DNA of 49,949 nt from an uncultured Lentisphaerota bacterium (GTDB taxonomy: Bacteria > Verrucomicrobiota > Kiritimatiellia > RFP12 > UBA1067), in NCBI GenBank assembly GCA_900320225.1, contig ONRL01000021.1:1-49949 (forward strand). Reading direction: 5' to 3'. A program made the position numbers and the translations under genes. Below, one piece after another: positions 3,984-38,748 of this stretch (positions are counted from its first letter, which is position 1; each line of letters starts with the position of its first letter). Under the pieces are notes generated by a model. The model was given only the letters and a program-made list of their open reading frames with translations, made no database searches and was not told the origin of the DNA.

Positions 3984-4031
3984 GGTCGCAACTTGTTGCG
4001 ACCGCCGGGAGGGTCGCGCTCCTGCGCGACC
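3984..4031. repeat. Two palindromic modules, second unit
   Basis: 3984-4003 is ggtcgcaacttgttgcgacc and 4012-4031 is ggtcgcgctcctgcgcgacc, identical to those in the first unit. The intervening gccgcca module of the first unit is absent here, so modules can be gained or lost individually. Confidence 0.85.
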
Positions 4032-4057
4032 GCAAGGTGGGGCGAGCCGCCGCCCCC

Positions 4058-4150
4058 CTACTGCACCTCCACCACCACCTTGAAGAACCGCATCGCCGCC
4101 TTCTCCGCCGCCGTCGCCCCTTCAACCACCTTCCACTCGCCGTCCACATC
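4058..4150 (-). pseudogene. Orphan 3' end of a surface-protein-type gene, copy 2
   Basis: It has the same frame and stop as the 2441-2533 fragment, with a DGEWKVVEGATAAEKA-type sequence and final VVVEVQ. Only scattered base changes separate the two copies. Confidence 0.6.
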
Positions 4151-4412: not shown

Positions 4413-4527
4413 GGTTCGCAACTTGTTGCGCCCGTATGGAGAGCCGCCATCTTGGCGGCGACCTCGGGGAAGCGGCGCTCTCGCCGCTTCTCTCGGTGGG
4501 GCGAGCCGTCCCCGGCGAGCCGCCCCC
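4413..4527. repeat. Palindromic modules, third partial unit
   Basis: 4413-4432 is a degraded ggtcgcaa-type module. 4443-4459 repeats gccgccatcttggcggc. 4469-4490 is a 22-bp module with 9-bp arms (gaagcggcg and cgccgcttc) and loop ctct. The region 4496-4527 has the gtggggcgagcc-type module. The 22-bp class recurs inside RimO, inside the GH2 gene and after the V-ATPase A gene. Confidence 0.8.
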
Positions 4528-15783: not shown

Positions 15784-17166
15784 TCATGCCTCCTCGAAAT
15801 CGAATCCGCGCACCTTGGCGATCGTCACGTCGATGAACGTGCCGACCTCGGCCGCACGGCGCAGGTGCACCACGCCGTCCACGTCCGGCGCCTGCGAGGC
15901 GAGACGCGCCACGCCCGGCGCCACCACGAGCGCGCGGAAGGTCCGGCCCACGTACTTGCGCGCCTTCGCGGACCAGATGCGTTTCTGGAGCGCCATCACT
16001 TCGCCCGCGCGGCGTTCCGCCACGGCGAGGGAAGGACGGCGCGGCAACTTCGCCGCGGGCGTCCCCTCCTCGGGCGAGAACGCGAATACGCCAAGGTGGT
16101 CGAACGACATGCGCTTCACGTCCGCGAGCATCCGCGTGAATGCCGCCGGCGTCTCGCCGGGGAAGCCCGTCATCACGGTCGTGCGCAATGTCACGCCCGG
16201 CACCGCCGCGCGCAGACGCTCCGCCGCCTCCCGCGTGGCCTTCACGGCCGACCCGCGCGCCATCGCCTGGAGAATCTTCGGATCCGTGTGCTGGAGCGGC
16301 ACGTCGATGTACTTCACGGCGTGCGGGGAGGTGTTCATCCAGTCGAGGAACGCGTCCGTGATCTCGCTCGGGTAGGAATAGAGCACGCGCACCCAGAAGT
16401 CGCCGGGAATCTTGTCAAGTGCCCGGAGGAGCGTCACGAGGTTCGTGCCGTCGCGGAAATCGACGCCGTACAGCATCGGGTCCTGCGCGATCACGTTCAA
16501 CTCCTTCACGCCCGTCTTGACAAGCGCGCGCGCCTCGGCAAGGACGCTCTTGAGCGGACGCGACCGGAACTTCCCGCGGATCGCGGGAATCGCGCAGTAC
16601 GCACAGCGGTGCGCGCACCCTTCCGCCACCTTGAGATACGCAAACGCCGCGCCCGTGAGACGCAGCGCGGGGATGGGCGGGTCGAAAACCTTCTTCGGCA
16701 GGCCGGGGGGAACAGTAGCGCTTTTTGAAGCGGCAAGAGTGCCGCTTCCCCGAGGTGAGCCTTCTCGGTCGCGCAGGAGCGCGACCCTCCCGTTGCAGTT
16801 TCGGGGAAGCGACACTCTTGTCGTTTCCTCAACCACTTGCGTAATGTGGTCGAGCGCGTCGACGCCGAGAACGGCGTCGAGGTCGGGAAACGCCTTCAGC
16901 ACCTCCGCGCGGTAGCGCTGCACGAAGCACCCCGCCGCGACCACCGCCTTGCAGCGCCCTGCCCGCTTCAGCTCGCACGCGCGCGCGATCTCGGCGGCGG
17001 CCTCCTCGCGCGCCGACTCGATGAACGCGCACGTGTTCACGAGGATCACGTCCGCGTTGTCGGGATCCGGCGCGAGCGTGTGGCCCGCCTTCAGGAGATG
17101 TCCGCTCATCACCTGCAGGTCCACCGCGTTCTTCGCGCAGCCGAGCGAGACGAGACCGATGGTCAT
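15784..17166 (-). CDS. rimO: Ribosomal protein S12 methylthiotransferase RimO with in-frame repeat insert
   Basis: The 460-residue MiaB/RimO-type enzyme would methylthiolate an aspartate of ribosomal protein S12. The N-terminal UPF0004 domain has cluster cysteines C10 (SLGCAKN), C46 (NTCAF) and C80 (AGCF). The radical SAM motif is C184-x3-C188-x2-C191 (CAHRCAYC). A C-terminal TRAM-like region follows, ending VRGFDFEEA. Residues about 114-147 (RVALLRDREGSPRGSGTLAA region) are encoded by three palindromic modules between the two domains and have no counterpart in the family. The start overlaps the GH2 stop as ATGA. Confidence 0.9.
   Translation of the reverse strand: MTIGLVSLGCAKNAVDLQVMSGHLLKAGHTLAPDPDNADVILVNTCAFIESAREEAAAEIARACELKRAGRCKAVVAAGCFVQRYRAEVLKAFPDLDAVLGVDALDHITQVVEETTRVSLPRNCNGRVALLRDREGSPRGSGTLAASKSATVPPGLPKKVFDPPIPALRLTGAAFAYLKVAEGCAHRCAYCAIPAIRGKFRSRPLKSVLAEARALVKTGVKELNVIAQDPMLYGVDFRDGTNLVTLLRALDKIPGDFWVRVLYSYPSEITDAFLDWMNTSPHAVKYIDVPLQHTDPKILQAMARGSAVKATREAAERLRAAVPGVTLRTTVMTGFPGETPAAFTRMLADVKRMSFDHLGVFAFSPEEGTPAAKLPRRPSLAVAERRAGEVMALQKRIWSAKARKYVGRTFRALVVAPGVARLASQAPDVDGVVHLRRAAEVGTFIDVTIAKVRGFDFEEA
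16727..16827. repeat. Three palindromic modules inside rimO
   Basis: 16727-16748 has arms gaagcggca and tgccgcttc with loop agag. 16767-16786 is ggtcgcgcaggagcgcgacc. 16806-16827 has arms gaagcgaca and tgtcgtttc (one G-T pair) with loop ctct. The insert keeps the rimO frame. Confidence 0.9.
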
Positions 17167-20100
17167 TGGGCCCCCTTCTTCGCGGACGTGAACGTGACGG
17201 ACCACTGTTCGCGCTGGATCGGGAAAATGTACTCCGCCTCGGGCTTCGGCCCGCAGCTCGCGCCGCCGAGGCCGAGCTGGCGGAGGTCGAGGTTGAGGCA
17301 CGTCTCCGCGCGCGGCGGTTTCACGTTCCAGATGCGCTGCTGCTTGTCGCGGTGGCGCGCGAACTCGAGGTCCTCCCACGTGTGATGAAGCGCCTGCACG
17401 AAGAGCGGCACGCTGCCGCGCACGCGCACGCCCGCGCCGGTTGCATCCGTGAGCGCCGCCCACCGCACGTCGCTCTTGTAGCCGTTGTCCTGCGGACGCA
17501 CGTAATCCACGTACTGCTCCGTCACCGTGGACGCCCATTTCCCGACGAACGAGCCCGTGCAGCGGTCGACGTAGTTCTCCCACGGTCCCCTTCCGTACCA
17601 CGCGAAGTTCTCAAGCCCCGGCTCGAGCATGAGCGAGAGGCCGAGGCGCGGCAGGGCTGACGGCATGCGCCCGTAGGGCGTCACATCGTTCTTGATGGTG
17701 AACGACCCGTCGCCCGCGAAGACGTAGTCCGCCACGTGCGTGAAGCCGGCGGACTTCGCGCCCTGCACCTCCACGACGGCGCGCACGCCTCCCGGAATCG
17801 CCGTGAGCGAACGCGTGTGGTAGCGGAGCTGCGTGAGGCCGCTCTGGTAGATGTTGCCGTAGCCGAGCTTCATCGGCGCGTCGGCGCGCCCGCGCAGCCA
17901 GATGTCGTTGTCCGTGAGCGCGCGCATGACGGTGAGGCGCGGACCGCGCACCACGCCGTCGCGGTCCTGGAGGATCACGCGCCCGTCCATCTCCAGGAAC
18001 GAGAGCGTGCCCGTGGCGCGGCTGAACACGGCCTTCGTGGTGCCGACCTGGACTTTGATGGAACCGTCTTGAAGCGGCGAGAGCGCCGCTTCCCCGAGTT
18101 TGTTCTGAAGCGGCGAGAGCGCCGCTTCCCCGAGGGGGGCCTTCTCGGTCGCGCAGGAGCGCGACCCTCCCAGCGCGATCTGGTCGCGTGCGACGGCGTG
18201 GCCCTTCTCCGCCCACAACGTATCCTTCTTCAGGCGGAAGGCGACGTTGAGGAAATATTCCACGCCCGGCTTTAGTGCGCCGTAGTTCGGCCACGGAAGC
18301 AGCGCGCGCGCGCCCGGCTCGACCGGCGGCACCTCGAACGTGCCCTTCGCCGCCACTTCGCCGTCGGCGAGCAGCTCCCACATGCCGTCGAAAGCGTCCG
18401 CGCGCGTGAAGGAGAAGCGGTTCCACAGCTCGAGGCCGTCGCCCTTCCGCGACACGACGAGGTTGCGGTGGACGTGTCCGACCTCCACGAGCTTCGGCGT
18501 CACGTGGCGTTCGGCGTCGATCACGCCGTTCGCGCAGAAGTTGCCGTCGTTCGGCTCGTCGAAGTCGCCGCCGTAGGCGAGGTAGCGCTGGCGCTTCCCG
18601 TCGGGGCCGAGGCGGTCGGTCTCCTTCCACACCGCCTGGTCCACCCAGTCCCAGATGCAGCCGCCCACGAGGGAATCGCTCGCGTAGAACGCGTCCCAGT
18701 ATTCCTTGAAGTTGCCGAGCGCGTTGCCCATGCAGTGCGCGTACTCGAAGAAGAACTGCGTCTTCTTGAAGAGGCCGCGTCCCTTCGTGTAGGCGATCGT
18801 CGGGTAGCCGGGGCCGTCCCAGGTGAAGCGCTCGCAGTCCTGGCGGTAGACCATCGGCAGGGTGGGGTCGAGCGGGCGGCATGCCTCGTTGACGATGTCG
18901 AACGTGGGGCCCTGCCCGGCCTCGTTACCCCAGCTCCACGAGAACACGCAGGCGTTGTTGCGCCAGTTGATCACCATGTCGCGGCAGCGGTCCACGTGCG
19001 CCTGCGTCCAGCTCGGCGGCGAGGCGAGGCACTTCACGCCGTAGCCCATGCCGTGGCTTTCCACGTTCGCCTCGGCCTGCACGTAGAGCCCGTAGCGGTC
19101 GCAGAGGTGGTAGAAGTAGGGGTCGTTCGGGTAGTGCGAGGTGCGCACGGTGTCGATGTTGAAGCGCTTCATCAGCAGCACGTCGCGGAGCATCTCCTCG
19201 CGCGACACGCTGCGTCCGTTCACGGGCGAGGCGTCGTGGCGGTTCACGCCCTTGAACTTCACGGCGCGGCCGTTGATCCACACCGCGCCGGACGGGCGCA
19301 CCTCCACCTTCTTGAGGCCGAGCTTGCAGGTGCGGATGTCGTCGCCCGCCGTGACGACGAGCGTGTAGAGGTAGGGATCCTCCGCGCTCCAGAGGCGCGC
19401 GTTGGGGACGTCCAGGTGCAGGCGGCCGTTACGCGCGGCGAACGTGCCCACGGGCGCGTAGGTGGCGTCGTAGAGGGTGGCGGAGGCGGTCGCGACGGAG
19501 CGCGACCCTCCCGTTGGGGACGTTTCGGTCGCGCGGGAGCGCGACCCTCCCAGTTCAACGTCGAGGTCGATGGTGGCGTCGCGGTAGTTGTTGACGAGGT
19601 CCACGGTGGCGTGGAAATCGCGTATCTCCGTCTTCGGCGTCGCGAAGAGCATCACGTTGCGGTAGATGCCGGAGTAGCGGAAGAAGTCCTGGTCCTCGAG
19701 GTACGCGCCGTCGCTCCAGCGGTAGACCTCCACGGCGAGCAGGTTGTCGCCGGGACGGAGGTACTTCGTGACGTTGAACTCGTGGGCCGTGCAGCTGTCC
19801 TCGCTGTAGCCCACCTTCTCGCCGTTCACCCACACGTAGTAGGCGCTGTACACGCCCTCGAAGCGCAGGTACACGGTGCGGTCCTTCCACGCGTCCGGCA
19901 CGGTGAACGTGGTGCGGTAGGACGAAACGGGGTTGTAGTCGCGGTCCGTGTAGGGCGGATTGTCGGGGTGGGGATAGGGGATGTTCGAGTAAATCGGTAT
20001 GCCGTAGCCCTTCAGCTCCACGCAGCTCGGCACGTCGATGTCGTACCAGCCGGAGTCGTCGAAGCCGGGCTTGTAGAAATCCTTCGGACGCTGCGACGGG

Positions 20101-20756
20101 GCGCCGCACCAGTTGTAGCGCCACGTGCCTTTGAGCGATTTCACCCACGGCGTCTGCGGCAGCTCGGCCGTGAAGGCGTCCTCCACGCGCGCGAGCGGGA
20201 ACGAGTAGGCGCGCGCGGGCTCCACGTTCACGTAGTTGACGAGCTCGTTCTCCCACTCGGGGGCCTTCTCCTTCGCGCGCTGGGCGCGCACCTTCGCGAG
20301 CGTGGCGTCGCGCACGTCCGCCCACTGCGGACCGTGCGTCTCGCGCAGGTCGGTCCATTCGAGGCGTCCCGCCTCCGTCGGCACGGACTTGAGGCGCGTC
20401 TCCACGAAGTGGCGCAGGGCGGCCTCGGTGCCGGCCACGTCGGAGCCGTGGAAGTACATCACGCCGTTGCGCAGACCGTACTTCCAGGCGCCCTTCGCGT
20501 CCCAGGGCTGCGTGGACACGTAGAAGTCGCCGGCGAACGCGGGCGCGTAGCCGAGCACCTGCACCTCCACGCCCGTCACGCGCTTCACCTCGGCGGCGAG
20601 CGTGCGCATGAGCGCGTAGGTGGCCTTCGTCTCGTCCTTGCTCGCGTGGATGCGGAACGGACGCGGGTCGTTGCGCTCGATGCTGAACGTCTCGGCGGCA
20701 AGCGGCCCTGCCGCCGAGACAGCCACGAGCAGGCAGCAGAGGTTCAGCGCCTTCAC
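17163..20756 (-). CDS. Exported GH2 beta-galactosidase-like enzyme with two in-frame repeat inserts
   Basis: The 1197-residue protein starts at GTG 20756, overlapping the dCMP deaminase stop as GTGA. It has a signal peptide (LNLCCLLVAVSAAGPLAAE), an extra N-terminal alpha/beta region of about 120 residues resembling the non-catalytic domain of GH20/GH67 enzymes, then a GH2 sugar-binding sandwich (SYRTTFTVPDAWKDRTVYL), an immunoglobulin-like domain, a TIM barrel and a beta-galactosidase small-chain region. The acid/base is E612 in WGNEAGQG and the nucleophile E671 in FFEYAHCMGN. Residues 404-423 and 864-896 (GGSRSRATE, GGSRSCATE and GEAALSPLQ types) are encoded by palindromic modules. It probably cleaves beta-galactosides or related glycans in the periplasm or outside the cell. 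Confidence 0.9.
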   Translation of the reverse strand: MKALNLCCLLVAVSAAGPLAAETFSIERNDPRPFRIHASKDETKATYALMRTLAAEVKRVTGVEVQVLGYAPAFAGDFYVSTQPWDAKGAWKYGLRNGVMYFHGSDVAGTEAALRHFVETRLKSVPTEAGRLEWTDLRETHGPQWADVRDATLAKVRAQRAKEKAPEWENELVNYVNVEPARAYSFPLARVEDAFTAELPQTPWVKSLKGTWRYNWCGAPSQRPKDFYKPGFDDSGWYDIDVPSCVELKGYGIPIYSNIPYPHPDNPPYTDRDYNPVSSYRTTFTVPDAWKDRTVYLRFEGVYSAYYVWVNGEKVGYSEDSCTAHEFNVTKYLRPGDNLLAVEVYRWSDGAYLEDQDFFRYSGIYRNVMLFATPKTEIRDFHATVDLVNNYRDATIDLDVELGGSRSRATETSPTGGSRSVATASATLYDATYAPVGTFAARNGRLHLDVPNARLWSAEDPYLYTLVVTAGDDIRTCKLGLKKVEVRPSGAVWINGRAVKFKGVNRHDASPVNGRSVSREEMLRDVLLMKRFNIDTVRTSHYPNDPYFYHLCDRYGLYVQAEANVESHGMGYGVKCLASPPSWTQAHVDRCRDMVINWRNNACVFSWSWGNEAGQGPTFDIVNEACRPLDPTLPMVYRQDCERFTWDGPGYPTIAYTKGRGLFKKTQFFFEYAHCMGNALGNFKEYWDAFYASDSLVGGCIWDWVDQAVWKETDRLGPDGKRQRYLAYGGDFDEPNDGNFCANGVIDAERHVTPKLVEVGHVHRNLVVSRKGDGLELWNRFSFTRADAFDGMWELLADGEVAAKGTFEVPPVEPGARALLPWPNYGALKPGVEYFLNVAFRLKKDTLWAEKGHAVARDQIALGGSRSCATEKAPLGEAALSPLQNKLGEAALSPLQDGSIKVQVGTTKAVFSRATGTLSFLEMDGRVILQDRDGVVRGPRLTVMRALTDNDIWLRGRADAPMKLGYGNIYQSGLTQLRYHTRSLTAIPGGVRAVVEVQGAKSAGFTHVADYVFAGDGSFTIKNDVTPYGRMPSALPRLGLSLMLEPGLENFAWYGRGPWENYVDRCTGSFVGKWASTVTEQYVDYVRPQDNGYKSDVRWAALTDATGAGVRVRGSVPLFVQALHHTWEDLEFARHRDKQQRIWNVKPPRAETCLNLDLRQLGLGGASCGPKPEAEYIFPIQREQWSVTFTSAKKGAQ
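18071..18166. repeat. Three palindromic modules inside the GH2 gene (C-terminal side)
   Basis: 18071-18092 and 18107-18128 are identical 22-bp modules (gaagcggcg-agag-cgccgcttc), separated by 14 bases. 18147-18166 is ggtcgcgcaggagcgcgacc, the same as at 16767 in rimO, with the same cttctc lead. Confidence 0.9.
19488..19546. repeat. Two palindromic modules inside the GH2 gene (N-terminal side)
   Basis: 19488-19507 is ggtcgcgacggagcgcgacc and 19527-19546 is ggtcgcgcgggagcgcgacc. Both are followed by cctccc. They fall between beta-strands of a GH2 sandwich or linker region. Confidence 0.88.
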
Positions 20757-36925: not shown

Positions 36926-38695
36926 ATGCAAGCAACAGGAAAAATCGTCGCCGTCAACGGCAACATGATCACCGTCGCGTTCGATGGCGCCGTAGCCCAG
37001 AACGAAGTGGGGTACGCCGTGTTGGGCGAAAAGAGGCTCATGGCGGAAATCGTGCGCGTGCGCGGTACGCGTTGCGACATGCAGGTGTTCGAGTCGACGA
37101 CCGAGCTCATGGTCGACGACCGCGTGGAGTTCACCGGCGACCTGCTCGCCGCCGAACTCGGTCCCGGCATCCTCACCCAGGTGTACGACGGCCTGCAGAA
37201 CCCGCTGCCGGAACTCGCGCGCGAAGTCGCGGACCGCGAAACCAACGAGGAAGACAAGAAGAACAAGAGCTTCTTCCTCCAGCGCGGCATGTACCTGCCC
37301 GGACTTCCCCGCGAGAGGAAATGGGACTGGCATCCCACCGCCGCGCCCGGCGCGCGCCTGACGGCGGGCGAGGAGCTTGGCTGGGTCACCGAGGGCATCT
37401 TCCACCACAAGATCATGCTGCCCTTCGCCTTCGCGGGCGTCTGGACCGTCAAGGACCTCGCCCCCGCCGGCGACTACACCGTCGTGGACGACATCGCGAC
37501 GGTCCAAGGTCCCGACGGACGCGAAAAGAAAGTCCAGATGATGCAGCGCTGGCCGGTGAAAGTCCCGCTCACATGCTACGTGGAACGCCTCGCGCCCGAA
37601 AAACCGCTCGTCACGTCCGTGCGCACGATCGACACCTTCTTCCCGGTGGCCGTGGGCGGCACCTACTGCATTCCCGGACCCTTCGGCGCGGGCAAGACCG
37701 TGCTGCAGCAGACCACCGCGCGCTACGCGAAGGTGGACATCGTGGTCTCCGCCGCGTGCGGCGAACGCGCCGGCGAGGTGGTGGAGATGCTGAAGGAGTT
37801 CCCCGAGCTCGACGACCCGCGCACGGGCAAGAAGCTCATGGACCGTACCGTGATCATCTGCAACACGTCCTCGATGCCCGTCGCCTCGCGCGAAGCCTCC
37901 GTGTACACCGCGGTGACGCTCGCCGAGTACTACCGCCAGATGGGCCTCAACGTGCTTGTGCTGGCGGACTCCACGAGCCGCTGGGCGCAGGCCATGCGCG
38001 AACTTTCCGGACGCCTGGAGGAAATCCCCGGCGAGGAGGCCTTCCCGGCGTATCTCGAATCGCGCATCGCCGCGTTCTACGAGCGCGCGGGACGCGTCAA
38101 ATTAAAGGACGGGTCCGTCGGCTCCGTCACGATCGGCGGCACCGTGTCGCCAGCGGGCGGCAACTTCGACGAGCCCGTCACGCAGGCCACGCTCAAGGTG
38201 GTCGGCGGCTTCCACGGCCTCAGCCGCGCGCGTTCCGACGCCCGCCGCTATCCGGCCATCGACCCGCTCGACAGCTGGAGCCACTATCCGTCCATCATCG
38301 ACCACGACCGCGTGGAGAAGGCGCGCGCCCTTCTCCGCAAGGGCAACGAGGTGGGGCAGATGATGAAGGTCGTGGGCGAAGAAGGCACGAGCCTCGCGGA
38401 CTTCACGATCTACCTGAAGAGCGAGTTCCTCGACACGGTCTACCTCCAGCAGAACGCCTTCTCCGACGTGGACGCCTCCACGCCCGAGGAGCGCCAGAAG
38501 GTGATGTTCGACGTCGTCGAGAAGGTGCTCTTCACGGAGTACAAATTCGAGAAGAACGACGACATGCGCAAGTTCTTCATGTCCCTGCAGCAGGCGTTCA
38601 TCGACTGGAACAACATCAAGAGCGACGCGCCGGAGTTCACCACCGCGCGCGACGCACTTCTCGCCAAGATCGCCGCCGCCGCGAAAGTGAAATGA
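36926..38695 (+). CDS. atpA: V-type ATP synthase catalytic subunit A
   Basis: The 589-residue catalytic subunit has Walker A GPFGAGKT (251-258), the catalytic GER (E280), the long non-homologous region with LPGLPRERKWDWHP, and TSRWAQAMRELSGRLEEIPG EEAFP (around residues 350-375). It hydrolyses or makes ATP coupled to H+ or Na+ flow. Subunits B, D, I and K normally follow, but here two palindromic modules and a gene on the other strand come next. The stop codon TGA overlaps the first module. Confidence 0.96.
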   Translation: MQATGKIVAVNGNMITVAFDGAVAQNEVGYAVLGEKRLMAEIVRVRGTRCDMQVFESTTELMVDDRVEFTGDLLAAELGPGILTQVYDGLQNPLPELAREVADRETNEEDKKNKSFFLQRGMYLPGLPRERKWDWHPTAAPGARLTAGEELGWVTEGIFHHKIMLPFAFAGVWTVKDLAPAGDYTVVDDIATVQGPDGREKKVQMMQRWPVKVPLTCYVERLAPEKPLVTSVRTIDTFFPVAVGGTYCIPGPFGAGKTVLQQTTARYAKVDIVVSAACGERAGEVVEMLKEFPELDDPRTGKKLMDRTVIICNTSSMPVASREASVYTAVTLAEYYRQMGLNVLVLADSTSRWAQAMRELSGRLEEIPGEEAFPAYLESRIAAFYERAGRVKLKDGSVGSVTIGGTVSPAGGNFDEPVTQATLKVVGGFHGLSRARSDARRYPAIDPLDSWSHYPSIIDHDRVEKARALLRKGNEVGQMMKVVGEEGTSLADFTIYLKSEFLDTVYLQQNAFSDVDASTPEERQKVMFDVVEKVLFTEYKFEKNDDMRKFFMSLQQAFIDWNNIKSDAPEFTTARDALLAKIAAAAKVK

Positions 38696-38748
38696 AGCGG
38701 CGGGAGCGCCGCTTCCCCGAGTTGATGAAGCGACTCGCTTGTCGCTTC
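38694..38748. repeat. Two palindromic modules filling the atpA/amidohydrolase junction
   Basis: 38694-38715 has arms gaagcggcg and cgccgcttc with loop ggag. 38727-38748 has arms gaagcgac and gtcgcttc. They reach from the atpA stop codon to 2 bases before the stop of the convergent gene, so they occupy the whole intergenic space and may act as terminators in both directions. Confidence 0.88.

Follow-up and report, generated by a model that had tools for sequence, protein, structure and literature searches.

Why does rimO of a rumen bacterium carry three palindromes in frame between two of its domains, and by what route did they arrive there? The window, 49,949 nucleotides of DNA, is contig C181 of G000, a metagenome-assembled genome of 5.2 Mb. 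Its rimO product scores 402 bits against the RimO equivalog model TIGR01125 (cut-off 356.95), contains the UPF0004 (4–101), Radical_SAM (180–348) and TRAM_2 domains, and has the Thermotoga RimO structure 4jc0 as its best Foldseek match (TMt 0.90). The initial annotation had described palindromic modules that add about 34 residues between the UPF0004 and radical SAM domains and leave all six cluster cysteines in place, and each of these points agrees with our analysis: three palindromes, arranged A-B-A' at 16727–16827, correspond to residues 114–147 (34 aa), the reading frame stays open across them, and Cys 10, 46, 80, 184, 188 and 191 are all present. REPs are repeats that do not move autonomously; a HUH transposase, RAYT/TnpA-REP, is proposed in the literature to spread them in the form of single-stranded hairpins. 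The components of the locus are listed below in these terms.

15784–17166, minus strand: rimO, encoding the ribosomal protein S12 methylthiotransferase (460 aa with the insert)
16727–16753, minus strand: REP A, first copy, hairpin 16727–16748 plus a TCGGG head (minus strand) that is conserved in the G000 copies
16767–16791, minus strand: REP B, hairpin 16767–16786 plus a GGGAG head (CTCCC on the plus strand, 16787–16791), within the spacer of the A dimer
16801–16827, plus strand: REP A', second copy, hairpin 16806–16827, inverted relative to the first A with the heads inward, one stem mismatch

The whole insert folds into a single long hairpin tipped by B, in RNA (-64.9 kcal/mol, z -7.4) as well as in DNA (z -7.3), and the A dimer thus has the two features of a REPIN, an inverted REP pair and a one-hairpin fold. 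In the AlphaFold model of RimO, pLDDT falls below 50 only at residues 123–148, in the interdomain linker, and is about 90 elsewhere.

The relatives retrieved through RimO are Kiritimatiellae, mainly from ruminant guts, and among congeners the linker forms an allelic series. No palindrome is present in G005 and G002, whose linkers are short, the rest of the enzyme being otherwise conserved among congeners; G009 carries a bare inverted pair of A, G013 three A copies, G011 four, the added copies coming in 36-nt steps, and G000 the A-B-A arrangement. The remaining members of the family have short, unrelated linkers. A pattern that would argue against an insertion, with the relatives all conserving an unrelated linker as long as the insert, was not found. 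Compared with the empty allele of G005, the gene of G000 has gained a net 96 nt, or 32 aa, and all length differences among the linker alleles are multiples of three. This presence/absence and copy-number variation supports the earlier reading of palindromic DNA elements that entered in frame at a tolerant linker. In a rimO tree built with the linker left out, the empty G005 clusters with the carrier G000 (bootstrap 89), so that one gain by itself is not enough to explain the tree, and an added loss, recombination event or second insertion is required. The series also bears on the idea, raised as a check in the initial annotation, that RNA or protein splicing takes the insert out of the mature product. 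Such excision would not need a frame that is open through the insert and kept in every allele, family scans detected neither an intein nor any further domain within RimO, and nothing in its favour was found, which makes splicing extremely improbable.

The same modules recur elsewhere in the window, including the gene adjoining rimO, where they cluster at two sites.

2384–2403, no strand assigned: REP B, outside predicted genes
4012–4031, no strand assigned: REP B, upstream of an AAA ATPase gene or in its long N-terminal extension
4469–4490, no strand assigned: REP A, outside predicted genes
17163–20756, minus strand: GH2 beta-galactosidase gene with in-frame REP copies (Pfam matches; comparison with G005 and G001)
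18071–18171, minus strand: A-A-B cluster within GH2 (GGSRSCATEKAPLGEAALSPLQNKLGEAALSPLQ), absent in G001, with a different palindrome family at the site in G005
19488–19551, minus strand: B-B cluster within GH2, a single B in G005 and none in G001
38694–38748, no strand assigned: REP A hairpin pair between two convergent genes

The GH2 translation confirms that the B module is read there as GGSRSCATE, as had been noted. At the A-A-B site, G005 (L078, about 4024–4100) instead carries another palindrome, GAAGCGGCGAGACGCCGCTTCTCCCAG, in two copies, which encode GRSGVSPL. The A hairpin pair at 38694–38748 occupies a classical REP position and may act as a terminator.

Both modules consist of a hairpin preceded by a 5' head on one side only: A reads TCGGG-GAAGCGGCR-CTCT-YGCCGCTTC and B reads GGGAG-GG[T/A/C]CGCGC-TCCT-GCGCG[A/T/G]CC (its hairpin also written GGWCGCGC-TCCT-GCGCGWCC). 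Alignments of the G000 copies show the B head conserved at 98–100% over 79 copies and the A head at 80–93% over 15, and position 3/18 of the B stem covaries as T-A, A-T or C-G. In the window, the A-type pattern matches 13 times and the B-type pattern 6 times, versus 0.13 and 0.46 expected from shuffles. Across G000, 92 A-type and 278+260 (about 538) B-type matches were counted, the latter versus 0+1 in the control; these copy numbers are uncertain because MAG assemblies break at repeats. A 685 kb sample (13% of the genome, its contigs partly picked for carrying B modules) holds 37 module-carrying predicted genes, which contain 70 of its 109 B copies (64%) and 8 of its 20 A copies, the gene calls being predictions of a codon model trained on G000 itself that assign 79% of bases to coding sequence. 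A and B share with REPs the high-copy short palindrome and the unpaired conserved head on a single side. The name REP refers here to this anatomy and to the link with a transposase and implies nothing about location, since the repeats are not mainly extragenic.

Intragenic B copies are read in every frame and in either orientation. From the use of different frames, the initial annotation had concluded that the encoded peptide is not selected; the conclusion was too strong, since 26 of 48 de-duplicated gene/orientation/frame cases share one frame (p=0.003), and the B-encoded peptide is therefore probably filtered. The same bias could be taken as a sign that the insert serves RimO as a functional domain maintained by selection, such as a linker with a regulatory or RNA-binding role, and the insert does persist, with changing copies, in four species. 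However, closely related species differ in copy number and module identity, two near relatives lack the insert altogether and it is predicted to be disordered, all of which makes a selected domain very unlikely.

Spacing follows the reading frame as well. Within genes, 20 of 20 spacings between same-orientation neighbours, not all of them independent, are multiples of three, as are 4 of 6 outside genes, and empty-site comparisons in coding sequences likewise gave length differences in multiples of three. The multiple-of-three spacing may reflect survival only. A frame-neutral design was considered as an adaptation and rejected, because 45% of random 26-mers in this genome are open in all six frames. 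Two loci, L201 (2633–4294) and L060 (9491–11305), hold tandem in-frame arrays of four B copies with a 30-nt period, encoding decapeptides like VAQERDPPDA and ADAQERVPPH; the array site of L060 is empty in G013 (L220). In G023, which belongs to another genus, GGGAG repeats follow one another every 97 nt on contig C5 (25–437) and about every 120 nt on C8 (3469–3972), as longer-period arrays of the same REP class.

The long hairpin could instead work at the RNA or DNA level, through transcript attenuation, mRNA stability or a gyrase site, with the coding effect being incidental. The predicted fold of the insert suits such a role, and comparable roles have been reported for REPs elsewhere (PMC3733652). 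As the explanation of the insert it is nevertheless unlikely, given that copies are found in either orientation, that the genes holding them are functionally unrelated and that the copy number in rimO is not conserved. A role of this kind can be compatible with the reading that we prefer, in which REP elements were inserted by their transposases.

Both families are associated with such a transposase gene. A RAYT gene flanked on both sides by its own repeat was found for A in three congeners (G010, G012 and G015; a HUH/Tyr gene between A arrays), and for B on contig C293 of G000, between B arrays, as well as in homologues in G004, G009 and G032. The two proteins hit the model NF047646 (REP_Tyr_transpos) with E-values of 1e-17 to 1e-19 and scores of 67.8 bits for the B-RAYT, which is interrupted by its own inserts, and 62.8 for the A-RAYT, both below the curated cut-off of 80. 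The B-RAYT of G000 has the motifs DHIH, WQ and YVRNNP, and B repeats interrupt it without breaking the frame, both in the N-terminal region and at an inner site that separates the HUH and Tyr motifs. An in-frame insertion at this inner site is present in G000, G003, G004, G011 and G023, and what sits there in G003, G011 and G023 is a repeat particular to each species, GGGAG-headed but differing in its stem; the site is empty in G009 and G032, and in G013 the contig stops within the ORF, immediately after the first inner copy. A close A-RAYT was not found in G000, an absence made uncertain by the same breaking of assemblies at repeats, and A may accordingly be immobile there, be moved in trans or have its RAYT in an unassembled gap.

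Other candidate genes were set aside. The number of Y1_Tnp genes was rejected as a correlate of module number, Y1_Tnp presence being uninformative because it occurs in 75 of 98 genomes, including some without modules. The RAYT genes of G000 on contigs C277 and C294 were rejected as mobilisers, as their flanks lack A or B arrays and those on C294 carry another palindrome. The surroundings of the latter RAYT-like gene (L075, 10293–11423) seem to hold a third repeat family, with 14-mers AAACAGGTCTGACC in 8 copies in the sample, and the C-terminal peptide LQNRSDLFC of its product is common to a neighbouring ORF. The RAYT-like protein on C277 (L074, 2424–3488) has the C-terminal repeat ALPSGQG.

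A parallel to the palindromic elements of Rickettsia had been drawn earlier, and it holds for the effect, that is, in-frame palindromes at tolerant sites in unrelated proteins. If it extended to the mechanism, the insert would be selfish coding DNA spread by an unknown route with no dedicated transposase, an outcome with precedent (PMC3733652). The CGTC families that include RPE-4 and RPE-6 have no reported transposase link (PMC3733652, Table 1), whereas A and B both have RAYT genes flanked by the same repeats. Anatomy and transposase association therefore fit REP/RAYT better, and a Rickettsia-type origin is quite unlikely.

Further parallels lie among REPs proper. In-frame intragenic REPs, often dimers encoding 20–30 residues, have been described (Di Nocera 2013, PMC3733652), and Opitutus terrae, placed in Verrucomicrobia, is the richest in GTAG cases (PMC3733652). 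The palindromic, often dimeric structure and the in-frame position are shared with A and B, but those elements have GTAG (GTAG/GTGG) or CGTC heads and are mostly intergenic, whereas the heads here are TCGGG and GGGAG. REPINs of P. fluorescens SBW25 are likewise RAYT-linked inverted doublets that form one long hairpin, yet they rarely overlap genes (14 of 1,067 REP 16-mers; Bertels and Rainey 2011, PMC3116915), in contrast to the mostly intragenic B copies. In TnpA-REP subclass 2.4, the transposase gene itself harbours REPs, located between HuH and Y (Quentin 2018, PMC6006769); the B-RAYT of G000 and relatives resembles it in being flanked and interrupted in frame at that site and in having WQ, but subclass 2.4 has NH[IFV]H, YIxNNP and a GT[AG]G head where the B system has DHIH, YVRNNP and GGGAG. 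The principle of in-frame REP insertion is thus already known from intragenic REPs (PMC3733652) and from REPs inside their own transposase (PMC6006769). What stands out here is the largely intragenic location, the GGGAG and TCGGG heads, and the transposase motifs DHIH and YVRNNP. Among the papers searched, none relevant to palindromic repeats of Kiritimatiellae was found.

By anatomy and transposase association, A and B are REP elements, and the RimO insert is best explained, with a probability of about 0.88, as a REPIN-like head-to-head A dimer that holds a B copy in its spacer and sits in the enzyme's flexible linker. The RAYTs of the two families would mobilise the repeats as single-stranded hairpins, and insertions within genes would survive if they keep the frame and fall in a surface loop or linker. 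Hence, the RimO insert is probably translated, as a presumably near-neutral extension of the linker.

A REP/RAYT system with mostly intragenic repeats contradicts the word 'extragenic', and 37 carrier genes in a 13% sample indicate the scale on which this occurs. The natural allelic series of rimO, GH2 and the transposase itself offer material for testing how bacteria tolerate or use mobile linker insertions. They are also a warning that annotations and structure models of these genomes include repeat-derived peptides. A tentative and rather doubtful extension is that a GGGAG-headed REP/RAYT lineage of Kiritimatiellae spreads chiefly via coding sequence and places linker peptides into hundreds of proteins. 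If this were true, the TAG-free head and the multiple-of-three spacings would suit the lineage to intragenic life.
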